Source: a virus | DNA length: 24,258 nucleotides | Virus record (IMG/VR): IMGVR_UViG_3300039136_000058 | Coordinates: 1 to 24,258 of that record | Strand: one strand, 5' to 3' | Shown: positions 3 to 24,258 of the stretch, piece after piece | Layout of the letters: each line of letters opens with the position of its first letter | Numbering within the stretch: the first letter of the stretch is position 1 | Notes under the pieces: generated by a model | Seen by the model: only the letters and a program-made list of their open reading frames with translations | What the model was told of the DNA's origin: nothing | The model's database searches: none | Translations under genes and position numbers: made by a program

Positions 3-392
3 AACTCAGGACTGAAAGGACATGGCAAGGTTGTTCGTGCGAAAAGCAGAGAAGGTAGAGCGAATTTTGTTAAGATGTCAAAGAAGCACTTAAACGCTCA
101 TCCAGTTGAAATACTGGCAATACTTACCAAGCAGGCAATGGTAGATGAAGATTATTATCTAGCTCTAGCGGCTTGTAAAGAACTTGCACAATATACAGCA
201 CCGAAACTAAAAAGCGTAGACCATTCGCTTGGAGCAAAGGAAAGCATGAAACCAGTCCAAATAGTTCTCAATGGTGGGACTAATCAAGTTAATCTGTCAG
301 AAGTCCAAACCCTAGAAGATGACCTGAACGATTTTGGTGCAAGTGAAGAGCCGATTGCACCGAAAGAAGTCATAACCCTAAACGCTGATTAG
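3..392 (+). CDS. Terminase small subunit-like protein (5' partial)
   Basis: The reading frame is open from the window edge, so the gene very probably begins upstream. The first internal ATG (75) has no ribosome binding site, and the residues before it (GLKGHGKVVRAKSREG, basic) read like real N-terminal protein. The body has a short helical segment with the pattern HPVEILAILTKQA then ACKELAQYTAPKLKSVDHS. In many phage small terminases a similar 'AAKEL.QY..PKLKxVEHS' stretch follows a 'P.e.L..ia' helix. The tail after residue 60 of the ATG form is acidic and low in complexity. A small terminase would recognise phage DNA and recruit the large subunit for packaging, but no large terminase is visible here. 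The identification rests on pattern memory only; another DNA-binding protein is possible. Confidence 0.5.
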   Translation, partial: NSGLKGHGKVVRAKSREGRANFVKMSKKHLNAHPVEILAILTKQAMVDEDYYLALAACKELAQYTAPKLKSVDHSLGAKESMKPVQIVLNGGTNQVNLSEVQTLEDDLNDFGASEEPIAPKEVITLNAD

Positions 393-978: not shown

Positions 979-1040
979 AAACATACGTAAACATACGCAA
1001 ATACACACAAATACACGTCAAATACACACAAATACACAAG
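979..1040. repeat. Left iteron cluster (six tandem units of 10-11 bp)
   Basis: Six head-to-tail units start at 979, 989, 999, 1009, 1020 and 1030. Two read AAACATACG(T/C) and four read AAATACAC followed by AC, GTC, AC or AAG. The spacing is one helical turn, so the A-runs are phased and the DNA is expected to bend. The CAAATACACA core differs by a single base from the reverse complement of the right-cluster repeat TGTGTATCTG. The two clusters are therefore inverted versions of one binding site. Confidence 0.85.
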
Positions 1041-1330
1041 ATGTGTATCTCCCGAAACGCTGATGGATAGGGGGCTGTAAGGGTAGAAAAACACAAAAAC
1101 ACAGCCCTAAAGACTAAATACTATTATTTATTAATAACTCGCTCTCTATATATCTCTATATAGCAAAAGAAGAAGACAGGACAAATTTCTTTCTAGCATA
1201 CACGTTCTATCTTAGGGTGTATATATTTTTTAAAAATAAAAGAATGGATATTAGATGGATATTTTTCTATGAATAATTTTTTTTCTATGGAGATAATTTT
1301 GAAAAATTAATAGACTGTCTTAAGGAAAAA

Positions 1331-1415
1331 TGTGTATCTGTGTATAAGTCATATAAATCAATGGGTTACGTGTGTATCTGACTGTGTATCTGATGTGTAT
1401 CTGACTGTGTATCTG
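1331..1415. repeat. Right iteron cluster (five copies of TGTGTATCTG)
   Basis: Perfect copies of TGTGTATCTG sit at 1331-1340, 1371-1380, 1383-1392, 1394-1403 and 1406-1415. The last four are spaced 12, 11 and 12 bp apart, close to one helical turn. A nine-of-ten copy, in the same orientation, lies next to the left cluster at 1042-1051. The sequence TGTGTATAA (1339-1347), overlapping the first copy, is a match to the DnaA box consensus TTATNCACA on the minus strand. Confidence 0.88.
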
Positions 1416-1602: not shown

Positions 1603-3855
1603 CTAAACAACAAAATACCTCAAAGTGGCTTTGTTGTTCTTGGAGACTGTTTTATCTTCCTTAATGATTTCTCTTGTCACCATTTCTGCTAGCAACTTGG
1701 TACATTCATCTTTTGACATACGCATACGATTGCGGATTTTGCCGAATGTAGCTCCATCATCACCAATGATTGCAATGGCTCTGGCTAACTTGTCTCGTCC
1801 ACCGCTACCTGCACCTTCCTTGTCGTTGGAGACAACTTTAATGGTCTTAATCTTGATGTCACGTAATACAAAAGCGTATGCCCATGTAATATGTTCCTCT
1901 GTGCGGATACCTTCCCCACTGGCTAAGATTAGCGAAAGTTTCAGTACTTGCTCGTAACCACGCCTTACTAAAGACTCATAACCATTGGTATTGGCGTAAG
2001 TCTCGGCTTGATTCCAGAATTCGTCACTGATTCTGTCTAACAACTCTAAGCCGCCTTTGGTTGTCTCGATAACAGTCCTGTTAGTTACTCTGTCTCCATC
2101 TTTAACGTCAACTGCGAGTTTGCGTAGACGTACAGCCAAACCAAGTGGTACAGGATGGACGTTACGGTGCTTGTTGATACGAGGATTGGTGTCTTCCTCG
2201 ATAAACATGAATGCTCTAGCGATAAAACCGTTAGTCGCTTGCTCAAAGTCGATAAGTTCGTCAAACACTGTTGGTGTGGTGAATCCTATTAAAGATAAGA
2301 ATGGATTAACTAAGCCAGACGATAACATTTCTATGTTTTTTTTAATTGATTCTGCTGTGCTAGTGTTTCCATCGTCCTCATAGGACTTCATCACTGCTAA
2401 CAACTGCTTGGTGACTTCCTTTTTAACGTCTCCACCTAAATGGAGTTTACCATTCGCTTTTGAGTAAATCGACATAATGGTACTGATAACACCTTCCAAA
2501 TACGATGCTCCAGAGCCTTTAGCGTTGACGATTTTAGACAGTAAGTAACCGAATTCGTCCACAGAGTAGATGTTTGCTTGTTGACTGCATAGGTTGCGGA
2601 TAAGTTCTTGTTCTGACTTGATGTTACCTAGTATGTTTTTATGCATACCACCTGCTTCCATGACATCACTGACAGACTGCAAAATGGATTCCTTACCTGT
2701 TGACGAGCCTGCAACACCGAAAGCAAGTATGTTAGTGCTAGAATTTAAGTGGTCTGTATAACGTAACCCACATAATGAACCGACTGACATAAGTGCCGCA
2801 CCGACCGCTAGGCGTTCTCTTGGATAAAGTGATTGTTGGTTAATCCAATCCGTGACTTCCCCGACAATACCGCATGGCTTGTTTAAGTCCACGTATGATG
2901 TGTCTATCACTCCTGTGCCACCTGCACCACTGTCGTTTTCTCCGCCCACCCCAACAATAGGCGTGTCTTCTATGTACTCGAAGGTGACAGGTGGTAAGTA
3001 ACCGTTGTTTTCAGCATGGTAGATAAGTGTTCCTAAGCCTACAACAGACTGAGACTTGCCGAATGAATGCCATTTACGTGCTTTAGCGTCATAACCATCG
3101 TATTTATCAGACTGTGAACACCATTTATCCCAGATTTCTAAGCCACCACCATGTAATGACTCGTGGATAGCCATACCTATCTCAATCATGGATTCGTATT
3201 CGTCTGCAAGTGCTACTGGAACGTACTCTAGGAGTTTTTCGACTTCCTGCTCATCAATGTCATACGTCTTACCGTTGAATTCTTTACGAATCTTGCCTTT
3301 CCGTTCTAATAGAGCTAATAATTTAGGTGGAATGTCACATTTTGGTGCAGACAAGCTTCCTTTCTCTAATTGATATGTATTACCACTTGCATGACTTGAA
3401 CCTAAACCTACAACAAACCCACTTGATTTAAAGTCGATACCTGCGTAGTCTTGCAACTTACCTAGATAAGATTTTTCCTCGTCTGCTTTGAAATAGATAT
3501 GCCTACCACCACCACCTGTACGAACTACGAGCGATGACTCTTCCTCAAAGTCTATACCTGTATCTTTTACAAGCCTAGCGTAGGATTCGTCTCCACCGTT
3601 ACGTGGGTCAATGTCAATAATCAAGCTTCCTTTACATAGTACGCCAAATCCAGTTTCAAACTGACCGATATCTAACATAACTTGGAGCTGTTCTTCTGAC
3701 CAATCTGGTGTGTATTGCCAGTTTGACGATAATGGGTGTTTGTAAGTGGCTTTACATTCCATGTTTCCACAACCACAGAATCCACATACTGTTTTATGCA
3801 ATGGAAATACTTTATAGCCTGCTTTAATATAATCTCTAATGTTTTGTTCAATCAT
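1603..3855 (-). CDS. PrimPol-type primase fused to a DUF3987-like helicase/ATPase
   Basis: Probable replicative primase-helicase of 750 residues. Positions count from the ATG at 3855. The N-terminus has a cysteine cluster (CGFCGCG then C34) and then a bifunctional primase/polymerase fold, with the catalytic DID at 81-83 and the GGGGRHIYF motif at 114-122. A helical PriCT-like segment follows (about 200-285). The C-terminal half is an ATPase of the DUF3987 kind, with Walker A GVAGSSTGKES (380-390) and Walker B YSVDE (430-434). A winged-helix-like tail ends at RYFVV. It would unwind DNA and lay primers at the fork. The ATG is preferred over an in-frame GTG four codons upstream (3867) because GGTGA lies at a good distance before it. 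The ATG overlaps the stop of the repressor gene, so the two are translationally coupled. The leftward direction is opposite to all other replication genes here. Confidence 0.85.
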   Translation of the reverse strand: MIEQNIRDYIKAGYKVFPLHKTVCGFCGCGNMECKATYKHPLSSNWQYTPDWSEEQLQVMLDIGQFETGFGVLCKGSLIIDIDPRNGGDESYARLVKDTGIDFEEESSLVVRTGGGGRHIYFKADEEKSYLGKLQDYAGIDFKSSGFVVGLGSSHASGNTYQLEKGSLSAPKCDIPPKLLALLERKGKIRKEFNGKTYDIDEQEVEKLLEYVPVALADEYESMIEIGMAIHESLHGGGLEIWDKWCSQSDKYDGYDAKARKWHSFGKSQSVVGLGTLIYHAENNGYLPPVTFEYIEDTPIVGVGGENDSGAGGTGVIDTSYVDLNKPCGIVGEVTDWINQQSLYPRERLAVGAALMSVGSLCGLRYTDHLNSSTNILAFGVAGSSTGKESILQSVSDVMEAGGMHKNILGNIKSEQELIRNLCSQQANIYSVDEFGYLLSKIVNAKGSGASYLEGVISTIMSIYSKANGKLHLGGDVKKEVTKQLLAVMKSYEDDGNTSTAESIKKNIEMLSSGLVNPFLSLIGFTTPTVFDELIDFEQATNGFIARAFMFIEEDTNPRINKHRNVHPVPLGLAVRLRKLAVDVKDGDRVTNRTVIETTKGGLELLDRISDEFWNQAETYANTNGYESLVRRGYEQVLKLSLILASGEGIRTEEHITWAYAFVLRDIKIKTIKVVSNDKEGAGSGGRDKLARAIAIIGDDGATFGKIRNRMRMSKDECTKLLAEMVTREIIKEDKTVSKNNKATLRYFVV

Positions 3856-4102
3856 TTTTATTTTCACCCATTGTCAACCATGACACGTCTGGTCTTAAAT
3901 CATGTTTTTTAAACTTACCTTTGGTAACTGACTCTACTTTTGCCGCCATTTTTTTAGATATACGTCCACGAATCTGCCAGTTATTAACTACTTGTTGTGT
4001 AATGCCTAGTTGTACCGCCATAGTAGCTTTACTGCCATAATAGGCTAATAGCTTGTTAAACTCTTTCCTCATATCTACTTTAAGCTGTTCCTTTATGCTC
4101 AT
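3848..4102 (-). CDS. Cro/YdaS-like helix-turn-helix repressor
   Basis: A protein of 84 residues with one helix-turn-helix. Residues of about 17-50 fit the YdaS/Cro pattern: KLLAYYGSKATMAVQLGITQ, with QQVVNNWQIRG as the recognition helix. They are followed by the ending 'GKFKKHDLRPDVSWL', typical of YdaS-type antitoxin/Cro proteins. It is the first gene of the leftward transcript and overlaps the primase gene by a few bases. It sits beside two divergent promoters, the usual place for a Cro-type switch protein that represses its own promoter and perhaps the rightward early promoter. No CI-like partner or integrase is in the window, so it may be the remnant or one half of a lysogeny switch, or simply an early-gene regulator. 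Confidence 0.75.
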   Translation of the reverse strand: MSIKEQLKVDMRKEFNKLLAYYGSKATMAVQLGITQQVVNNWQIRGRISKKMAAKVESVTKGKFKKHDLRPDVSWLTMGENKND

Positions 4103-4187: not shown

Positions 4188-4219
4188 TATTCCTAGCGAC
4201 AAAAATACAAATAAAAAAT

Positions 4220-4241
4220 AAAACCAAAATAAAACCAAAAT
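4220..4241 (+). repeat. 11-bp tandem repeat upstream of the rightward early promoter
   Basis: AAAACCAAAAT occurs twice head-to-tail (4220-4230, 4231-4241), ending five bases before the -35 box at 4246. The unit is one helical turn long. It could be an UP element that contacts RNA polymerase alpha subunits or a regulator site. Confidence 0.6.
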
Positions 4242-4245
4242 AAGT

Positions 4246-4274
4246 TTGACAATCGTTTTTCTACGCAATAGAAT
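4246..4274 (+). promoter_or_regulatory. Strong sigma70-type early promoter of the replication operon
   Basis: TTGACA (4246-4251), a 17-bp spacer and TAGAAT (4269-4274) make a near-consensus promoter. The start is predicted near 4281, about 60 nt before the Sak4-like gene. The spacer contains GTTTTTCTACG (4255-4265), an 11-mer repeated exactly at 9516-9526 in the late leader. It lies about 60 bp from, and diverges from, the leftward promoter, so a repressor bound between them could control both. Confidence 0.8.
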
Positions 4275-7283: not shown

Positions 7284-9098
7284 ATGTTTACACCTAGACC
7301 TTATCAGAAAGAAGCAATAGATAAAGCAATAGATGGTATGAGATATTGCCTTGATGCTTTGCTTTTAGAGTTAGCAACAGGAGCAGGTAAAAGTATTATC
7401 GTTGCTAAAATTAGTGAGACTGTATGTGCTAATGGGCGTAACAAGGTGTTGTGCCTTGCTCCATCTAAAGAACTAACAGAGCAGAATTATGAAAAGTACA
7501 CTGCAACAGGGGCAAAAGCTTCGTTTTATTCTGCTTCTATCGCTAAGAGCCTAAAGCACGATGTTATTTTCGGTACTCCATTAACTGTCAAGAACGGATT
7601 GGATAAGGTTAAGAAGCTAAATATAGCGGCTGTAATACTAGACGAAGCACACATGATTACACCAACTATTAAAGAGATAATCAGTGTGTTAAAAGCGGCA
7701 AACCCTCAGTTGCGTATTCTTGGAATGACTGCGACTCCGTACCGTACTAAAGAGGGATATATTTATGAAGTTGATGAAAATGATGTACAGGTTGAAGAAG
7801 CGTTAGAACCTTACTTTAAGAAACTTCTGTATAGAAAGACAGCAGAAGAATTGATTGAGGACAGGTATCTAACAAGACCCATACACGGTGATGAAATAGA
7901 GCAGTACGATACGTCAAGCCTTGTTATGAAAGGTGGTAAGTTTGACTCTAAAAGTGTTGATAAAGCGTTTCTAGGACACGGACGAAAAACAAGTAAGATT
8001 GTTGAAGAAATCATTTCCAAGTCTTCTAACAGAAATGGCGTGTTGATTTTTACGGCTAACATAGACCATGCAAAAGAAGTATTAGCTTCTCTCCCACCTG
8101 AAATATCAACAATGGTAGATGGTAAAACATCAAAAAACGAACGAAAACAAATACTAAGAGACTTTAAGGATATGAAATTAAAGTATCTTGTAAATGTATC
8201 TGTACTGACAACGGGTTTTGATGCACCACACGTGGATGTAGTGGCTGTATTGAGAGCAACAGAGTCAGCAGGGTTGTTTCAGCAGATAATTGGGCGTGGA
8301 ACACGACTGTATGAAGGTAAAACAAATTTTCTAGTATTGGATTATGCTGAGAATATATCAAGACATGAGTTGCACGAAAGTTTATTTAAGCCGACAATTA
8401 CAGCAGGGTTTAAGTCAAAAGGTGGCGGAAACATGACAGCTATCTGCCCTGTTTGTGCTTTTGAAAATCAAGTTACCGCAAGACCAAATCCAGATGGCTA
8501 TGAGATTAACGAATACGGCAATTTCACAGATGCTCTAGGAGAAGAAGTGTTGACCGATGATGGTAGACCATATCCTGCACACTTTGGGCGTTCGTGTCAG
8601 TCATTCCTGTTGACAGACAAGAGTTATGTTCAATGTAGTCATAAATTCACTTCAAAGAAGTGTACAGAATGTGGTCACGATAATGACATATCTGCAAGAC
8701 GATGCAAAGCTTGTAGACATGAGCTTATCGACCCGAACGAAAAACTAAAACTTGATTATGAGAAATTTAAATCAGACCCACGCAAATTATCTGTTGATAA
8801 TGTATTAGCATGGACTATTCAAAGGTGGCACAGTCAATCTGGTAACGATATGGTAAAGGTTGAGTACACAACAGAGTACAGGACTTTTCCAGTTTGGTAT
8901 TCACCAAAGATACGTGCAACATGGCTAGACTTCACAGAGCAGGTGTTTGGAATACAGACAACAGATATATATGATGTATTTTCAAGAATCAGTATAGGAA
9001 AGATGCCTAAAACAATAACAGTAGTAAAAGATGGTAAATTTTATAAGGTGACTAAACACAATGAATCTCAAAAAGCTAACAGTGCCTATTTTCGGTGA
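7284..9098 (+). CDS. SF2 DEAH-type DNA helicase with zinc-finger C-terminus
   Basis: A superfamily 2 helicase of 604 residues. It opens with PRPYQKEAIDKA, a Q-like motif. Walker A is ATGAGKS (31-37), DEAH at 120-123, TAT at 149-151, a TTGFDAP segment near 309-315, and motif VI QIIGRGTR at 334-341. After the helicase core come cysteine pairs C388/C391, C451, C460/C463 and C474/C477, probably one or two zinc ribbons that grip nucleic acid. The fold is that of phage helicases related to UvsW and type I restriction motors, which remodel forks and recombination intermediates. It follows the YqaJ gene by a single base. Its last 38 bases overlap the VRR-NUC gene, so the three are co-translated. Confidence 0.87.
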   Translation: MFTPRPYQKEAIDKAIDGMRYCLDALLLELATGAGKSIIVAKISETVCANGRNKVLCLAPSKELTEQNYEKYTATGAKASFYSASIAKSLKHDVIFGTPLTVKNGLDKVKKLNIAAVILDEAHMITPTIKEIISVLKAANPQLRILGMTATPYRTKEGYIYEVDENDVQVEEALEPYFKKLLYRKTAEELIEDRYLTRPIHGDEIEQYDTSSLVMKGGKFDSKSVDKAFLGHGRKTSKIVEEIISKSSNRNGVLIFTANIDHAKEVLASLPPEISTMVDGKTSKNERKQILRDFKDMKLKYLVNVSVLTTGFDAPHVDVVAVLRATESAGLFQQIIGRGTRLYEGKTNFLVLDYAENISRHELHESLFKPTITAGFKSKGGGNMTAICPVCAFENQVTARPNPDGYEINEYGNFTDALGEEVLTDDGRPYPAHFGRSCQSFLLTDKSYVQCSHKFTSKKCTECGHDNDISARRCKACRHELIDPNEKLKLDYEKFKSDPRKLSVDNVLAWTIQRWHSQSGNDMVKVEYTTEYRTFPVWYSPKIRATWLDFTEQVFGIQTTDIYDVFSRISIGKMPKTITVVKDGKFYKVTKHNESQKANSAYFR

Positions 9099-23830: not shown

Positions 23831-24258
23831 ATGGCTATTAATGAAACAATACCTGCAAACACAAGTGACTTGCCAGATATCAAGACACAAACCCAAGAGG
23901 CATTTAGTACAAACGCAGATGCGGCCTTTTTGCATATCCAACAGCTTGTACCTTCTATTAACACATGGGCAGGAGAAGCTAACTCAACTGCTACACAGGT
24001 TAATACAGATTCAGTCAATGCTACGACTAAAGCAAGTGAAGCATCTACGAGTGCAACTAATGCCTCTAACAGTGCTACAGCTTCAGCTAACTCTGCTACA
24101 GCATCAGCTACGAGTGCTACAGCTTCAGCTAACTCAGCTACAGCAAGTGCTACAAGTGCTACAGCAGCACAAACAGCGTTAGACACTTTTACAGGCCAAT
24201 ATCACGGGGCATTATCTACTGCACCAACAACAGGTGTAGACACTGGTGATTTGTATTT
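23831..24258 (+). CDS. Tail fibre/tail tip protein, N-terminal part (3' partial)
   Basis: The gene begins at 23831 with GAGG upstream, two bases after the previous stop, and is still open at the window end (about 142 codons seen). Residues 1-60 (MAINETIPANTSDLPDIKTQ) form the attachment part. From about residue 66 to 114 the protein consists of Ser/Ala/Thr/Asn heptads (SATASAN repeated), expected to form a trimeric coiled-coil or rod. It then continues YHGALSTAPTTGVDTGDLY, a segment typical of phage fibre shafts. It is probably the host-recognition fibre. The end and receptor-binding part are missing, so further domains cannot be named. Confidence 0.7.
   Translation, partial: MAINETIPANTSDLPDIKTQTQEAFSTNADAAFLHIQQLVPSINTWAGEANSTATQVNTDSVNATTKASEASTSATNASNSATASANSATASATSATASANSATASATSATAAQTALDTFTGQYHGALSTAPTTGVDTGDLY
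24068..24172 (+). repeat. 21-bp tandem repeat coding for heptads in the fibre gene
   Basis: Five consecutive 21-bp units start at 24068, 24089, 24110, 24131 and 24152. Each encodes (N/T)SATASA or a near variant, and two more degenerate units precede them (24026-24067). The period is exactly seven codons, so changes in copy number keep the frame. The unit resembles AACAGTGCTACAGCTTCAGC. Confidence 0.8.

Follow-up and report, generated by a model that had tools for sequence, protein, structure and literature searches.

Phage satellites of the PICI and SaPI kinds carry their replication origin directly 3′ of the initiator gene, where two sets of iterons flank an A+T-rich region (PMC6092414). The origin of one such element, the EcCICFT073 PICI, supports plasmid replication, and this organisation was stated to be unknown in any other bacterial replicon (PMC6092414). 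On inspection of its sequence, the EcCICFT073 origin contains units of the TATCTACC type, arranged 3′ of pri-rep as 9–11 bp repeats in four blocks, two near and two far, with the far blocks reversed. The iterons just downstream of the genes for SaPI Rep and SCCmec Cch2 are bound by the C-terminal domains of these proteins, apparently as two hexamers (PMC7581432). In satellite P4, the α protein binds repeats through a winged helix, unwinds and primes (PMC4234260).

We analysed a 24,258-base IMG/VR virus record (the window), which is probably a fragment, and in which opposed repeat arrays at 979–1415 flank A+T-rich DNA beside a primase-helicase gene. An earlier note on this DNA had taken the segment for a candidate iteron-controlled origin and had known of no described phage with this exact arrangement. 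The first claim is still the best reading and is backed by conservation in dozens of relatives; the second gives way, as PICI/SaPI and P4 satellites have the same or a similar layout. Like the origins of EcCICFT073 and SaPIbov1, the window site is immediately 3′ of the initiator gene, and it shares the four-block opposed geometry of EcCICFT073. By comparison with these systems, its iterons would also be read by a C-terminal domain of the initiator. The initiators differ, being of the D5_N/DUF5906/Pox_D5 type in EcCICFT073 and of the Prim-Pol/PriCT-2 type with a DUF3987/MCM-like helicase in the window. Satellites are also without particle genes of their own, whereas the window has genes for portal, major head, scaffold, connector, tail terminator and tape measure.

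P4 resembles the window in using a single primase-helicase with a winged-helix origin-binding domain, and its crr region lies directly 3′ of α with type I repeats in both orientations. However, replication of P4 depends on two cis regions, ori1 and crr, with several kb between them; one array region is seen in the window, which is probably a fragment. In P4, crr is a 120-bp direct duplication with repeats in the order ++−−+, and ori1 has a low opposed-array score because its repeats are not split into two opposed sets. The α protein combines a Toprim primase with a D5_N helicase, unlike the window protein. SCCmec Cch2, also a helicase that loads itself, uses its C-terminal domain to bind direct repeats that follow closely on the operon, and may do so as two hexamers, but its site has three 5-nt iterons only and it works with another polymerase-primase. 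The PrimPol of phage NrS-1 shares the Prim-Pol, a helix-bundle domain and a hexameric AAA+ helicase; the NrS-1 genome has two copies of an 8-nt priming site, and no iteron arrays have been described there. By analogy, the window site would work like the PICI/SaPI and P4 origins, as a variant outside both families because its helicase belongs to another family and its carrier is a full phage. Judged against the open-access literature, so that an earlier description is possible, this looks like a satellite-type origin layout in use across a large family of ordinary phages.

Architecture of the array region

The features of the region and its neighbourhood are as follows.

3–392, plus strand: gene cut by the window start, with no match in Pfam or PHROGs
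979–1038, plus strand: far outer iteron array, six AAAYAYAC-type units at 10–11 bp spacing, distal to the primase gene
1042–1050, minus strand: one unit in reverse orientation, TGTGTATCT, bordering the far outer array on its inner side
1087–1103, plus strand: far inner pair, two copies of AAAAACACA at 1087 and 1095 with 8-bp spacing, one mismatch to AAATACACA
1104–1330, no strand: A+T-rich core between both inner pairs, candidate melting region
1316–1325, minus strand: core-edge motif CCTTAAGACA beside the near inner pair, seen directly and in the same place in relatives L097 and L186
1331–1348, minus strand: near inner pair, TGTGTATCTG (1331) and TGTGTATAAG (1339) with 8-bp spacing, TGTGTAT at both
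1371–1415, minus strand: near outer array, four perfect TGTGTATCTG units with spacing 12, 11 and 12 bp
1603–3867, minus strand: primase-helicase gene, proposed initiator (Prim-Pol, PriCT-2, MCM-like AAA+ helicase and C-terminal winged helix; phrog_3022 DNA primase)
1606–1797, minus strand: C-terminal winged-helix domain (residues 691–754), proposed iteron reader from its fold and its co-variation with the iterons
3848–4102, minus strand: Cro/YdaS-like HTH regulator gene, upstream of the primase gene and co-directional with it

All eleven repeat copies listed in the earlier note are present and unique in the window, two of them weaker: the far outer array has degenerate AAACATACG units at 979 and 989, followed by AAATACAC at 999, 1009, 1020 and 1030 (spacing 10, 10, 10, 11 and 10 bp). 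Five perfect copies had been reported on the right, and TGTGTATCTG is exact at 1331, 1371, 1383, 1394 and 1406 and nowhere else in the record, but the first of these stands 40 bp from the other four. The left and right units are reverse complements bar one base (CAAATACACA and CAGATACACA), as had been seen, and the far array is inverse in orientation to the near array, as among relatives. The two inner 8-bp pairs and the reversed copy at 1042 had been missed; a reversed copy within the outer array is found also in L097, L041 and L043. With the two inner pairs present, the site consists of four nested blocks: on either side of the A+T-rich core an inner block at 8-bp spacing, and beyond these an outer block, at 10–12 bp on one side and at 10 bp on the other.

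The DNA between the inner pairs (1103–1330) is 75% A+T, in keeping with its earlier description, and 1218–1357 (81% A+T) is the most A+T-rich 140 bp of the entire 24,258. Within the core, 1262–1300 holds two copies of an A+T-rich 18–20-bp repeat, TTTTTCTATGGAGATAATTT. The 1.2 kb that carry the arrays (393–1602) have no ORF of 60 aa or longer, and the arrays lie outside any gene, between convergent gene ends. The near arrays (1331–1415) start about 190 bp beyond the primase stop at 1603, and thus directly 3′ of the gene. This differs from lambda-type origins, in which iterons of one orientation lie inside the initiator gene.

Chance does not readily produce such a cluster. Five exact copies of the 10-mer occur per 100 bp, compared with at most two in 150 second-order Markov windows, and the opposed-array score is 9 against a shuffle maximum of 5. 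A sliding scan found no comparable opposed cluster elsewhere in the window, every other 600-bp stretch scoring 5 or less. The cumulative GC-skew plot that the earlier note had proposed carries no information on the origin because skew tracks gene direction; its minimum is near 4250, at the divergent promoter.

Opposed arrays could also pair with each other as hairpin arms rather than serve as protein sites. The precedent is pRN1, in which an HTH repressor gene accompanies a Prim-Pol/helicase/winged-helix gene and replication requires a stem-loop origin 3′ of the latter (PMC4234260). The authors of that study extended the model to PriCT-2 phages, BIP-1 among them, for which they proposed a stem-loop on the 3′ side of the gene and saw no iterons fit for an origin (PMC4234260). 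The window shares this gene order, and its segment as single-stranded DNA folds better than shuffles (−48 versus −32 kcal/mol, z −3.5), with array pairing with array. However, any opposed arrays of one unit would fold likewise, and the pRN1 stem-loop spans 100 nt without iterons, whereas the window has iterons and its arms are mismatched in every intact unit, an A of the left unit meeting the C left by its right partner (CAAATACACA versus TGTGTATCTG). The hairpin register is moreover broken because the arm spacing differs (10–11 versus 11–12 bp), and neither the tandem 8/10-bp geometry nor the link to the winged helix described below is expected of a hairpin. BPP-1 (L098), which is nearly identical to BIP-1, itself has opposed TTTGCCTCG pairs (two plus two) 3′ of the primase gene, about 445–575 bp beyond the bbp29 stop, so iterons may explain the BIP-1 hairpin. 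We consider a stem-loop origin most unlikely here, and protein-binding arrays much more probable.

Recurrence of the layout among relatives

The earlier note had proposed to look for the repeats in related phages. As DNA, 393–2400 has no match among phage records, but the opposed layout does recur. A single-protein search returned near-identical contigs only and was useless for conservation; a genome-contig scan gave few close relatives and hence no replication set, and the sole near relative, L006, is almost identical to the window and tells nothing about selection. Because DNA similarity finds nothing, we compared arrangement instead of letters.

An alignment of nine primases yielded a discovery set of 80 IMG/VR loci at 39–46% identity. 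When clustered 9-mers were sought blind, many loci had their best cluster just beyond the primase stop, in two opposed arrays. Locus L043, for example, has three copies of GCAAGATAG at 10–11 bp, three at 8 bp, a 149-bp TA-rich core and then the mirror image, and L097 carries the window's own unit, AGATACACA. We scored opposed arrays over the 600 bp directly 3′ of the homologous Prim-Pol/PriCT-2/helicase gene with a threshold of S ≥ 6, which was reached in 25 of 86 regions (the window included, and some being mutually close relatives) and in none of 86 mid-gene stretches; at eight loci any of 25 shuffles scored 6 or more. Over the first 150 bp, GATAG is read 63 times on the coding strand and five times in reverse, a ratio that inverts farther out.

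Four predictions were fixed beforehand for a held-out set of 43 relatives, all of them less than 90% identical to one another and to any in the first set. In this set, S ≥ 6 was found in 15 of 43 relatives, compared with 0 of 43 coding controls and 5 of 430 shuffles, so that over both sets shuffles reach the threshold at a rate of about 1% or lower. The near-to-far strand flip has p = 2e-14; these p-values are optimistic, given some dependence between the two sides of a locus and between related loci. Pairs at 8 bp lie inside pairs at 10–12 bp on 17 of 19 discovery sides and on all 19 held-out sides (36 of 38 overall). No opposed array was detected in about two-thirds of the relatives, which reflects either divergence or absence. 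H103 (L009) has its array 3′ of the primase gene at 8308–8519, but some relatives, namely pYD21-A, VaS_L1 and phiHSIC, carry theirs on the 5′ side. Within the cores of relatives, TATATATA is enriched.

DnaA boxes were set aside as origin evidence. With 0.45 expected, the 86 regions contain five exact TTATCCACA boxes, but three of the five come from one close group (L041, L043 and L071), just beyond the primase stop, and the relaxed box is at expectation in the same regions (8 versus 7.3). The window has a relaxed match only, inside an iteron pair. At 8673–8777, far from its primase gene, L087 has nine exact copies of CCCTAGTCG at 13-bp spacing.

The constancy of position bears on two other functions for non-coding repeats. 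Repeats near terminase genes have a packaging role in some phages, and the gene left of the arrays has no match in Pfam or PHROGs; the arrays might be a pac or cos site bound by terminase. Against this, the arrays stay with the primase gene across relatives, terminase genes are at least 2 kb away in H103 and pYD21-A, and opposed symmetry about an A+T-rich core is atypical for packaging sites; we give a packaging site a negligible probability. Clustered non-coding repeats adjoining replication genes would also suit a centromere-like partition site of a plasmid-prophage, but the scanned window proteins include no ParA/ParB-type match and conservation tracks the primase winged helix, so partition too is hardly to be credited.

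A candidate iteron reader

The earlier note had named no initiator, and we now propose the C-terminal winged helix of the primase-helicase, on the strength of fold and co-variation. Pfam assigns Prim-Pol and PriCT-2 domains, with DUF3987 above cut-off in L043 and no D5_N match. In a confident AlphaFold2 model built with 52 relatives (mean pLDDT 87.5), residues 332–676 resemble MCM helicases (Z 17.4, rmsd 3.8 Å over 250 residues) and a winged helix occupies 691–754. Folded alone, the last 74 residues again form a winged helix, near many DNA-binding ones (Z about 10). A sequence profile search against solved structures found no relative; the P4 origin-binding domain and SaPI Rep are absent from the structure match lists, which excludes nothing.

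Co-variation was assessed by Mantel tests, from which relatedness is not fully removed; they are given instead of a table of helix 2 motifs (GV.NR versus ATAG units) because the latter was noticed post hoc. Across 23 loci, iteron similarity follows winged-helix identity (r = 0.33, p = 0.0008), and still does with the helicase domain partialled out (p = 0.0006), whereas the helicase contributes nothing beyond the winged helix. The held-out co-variation is weak and nominally significant only (r = 0.22, p = 0.026; partial p = 0.048). In the pooled data (n = 43) p < 0.0002, and the helicase given the winged helix has r = −0.05. Among 60-residue stretches, r exceeds 0.20 only where the winged helix is covered. 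The window and L097 have the unit ATACACA in common, yet no obvious shared recognition helix.

Pairs of close relatives supply natural swaps. Outside the winged helix, L182 and L184 are identical at 655 of 680 positions, compared with 51 of 65 within it (p = 1e-6); one of the two has ATACACA iterons, which are replaced in the other, parts of the core being kept. The same pattern is seen between L206 and L211 (p = 9e-8). L182 and L186 show the converse: the Prim-Pol domains are 70% identical and the winged helices 96%, and the iterons are kept. L211 was used in place of its sister L213, which was dropped as a swap example because its C-terminus is frameshifted; the primase of L213 is otherwise intact. 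As far as sequences can tell, the swap pairs behave as a reader and its site would, and the iteron reader is probably the C-terminal winged helix of the adjoining primase-helicase.

Alternatively, the arrays might be an operator or incompatibility site, occupied not by an initiator but by the Cro/YdaS-like regulator or by some protein of copy control. The regulator gene shares the operon, and phage regulators bind short repeats. However, the arrays lie between convergent gene ends, distant from the operon promoter, and relatives with similar GATAG-type iterons have HTH genes of unrelated families, similarity of the upstream HTH gene being unrelated to iteron similarity (r = −0.02). An operator or incompatibility site thus has very little probability, and the Cro/YdaS-like protein is the probable regulator of the operon and not the iteron reader.

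Proposed mode of initiation and genomic setting

We consider it very probable that 979–1415 is a phage replication origin at which the primase-helicase binds the repeats through its winged helix, two rings load and replication is bidirectional. Monomers would bind the repeats through the C-terminal winged helix, and one MCM-like ring would then assemble on each side, the two facing each other across the A+T-rich core because the arrays point in opposite directions. The rings would melt the core, the Prim-Pol domain would prime both strands and replication would depart in both directions. Binding and ring loading are modelled by analogy on SaPI Rep and SCCmec Cch2, and unwinding and priming on P4 α. 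At a guess, the inner and outer blocks have separate roles. A broader and rather doubtful extension is that the site exemplifies a nested, mirror-symmetric origin code of a very large group of tailed phages, in which outer 10-bp and inner 8-bp arrays might serve docking and ring assembly of a head-to-head MCM-like double ring, and in which winged helix and iterons might evolve together as exchangeable alleles, by which competing phages would differ in origin specificity.

The layout provides a sequence rule for locating origin and initiator across a large phage family with uncultured and cultured members, in which most origins have no annotation. An arrangement regarded as special to phage satellites is thereby extended to full phages whose MCM-like helicase is unrelated, which suggests that the DNA side either converged or descends from a common source. 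Where winged helix and iterons have changed together, they are natural swaps for studying origin recognition by a self-loading helicase, and the nesting of 8- and 10-bp repeats makes a concrete prediction on the placement of two rings on DNA.

Divergent from the primase and regulator genes are those for Sak4, a single-strand binding protein, a RecE-like exonuclease and a RadD-like helicase, and then portal, scaffold, major head, connectors, tail terminator and tape measure. None of the window proteins scanned matches a terminase, which makes it likely that the record is incomplete. Named phages with the primase module include Pseudoalteromonas H103, Vibrio pYD21-A, Alcaligenes CASP1 and Listonella phiHSIC. 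The small gene preceding the primase gene in relatives is of at least two unrelated HTH kinds (Cro/YdaS-like and an 'LHYNTLR' type), which are swapped freely. A second A+T-rich patch, between the divergent Cro/YdaS and Sak4 genes, has 2.6 copies of AAAATAAAACC at 4215–4243, and a 21-bp coding repeat (about 4.8 copies) is present at 24066–24166, in the gene cut by the window end.
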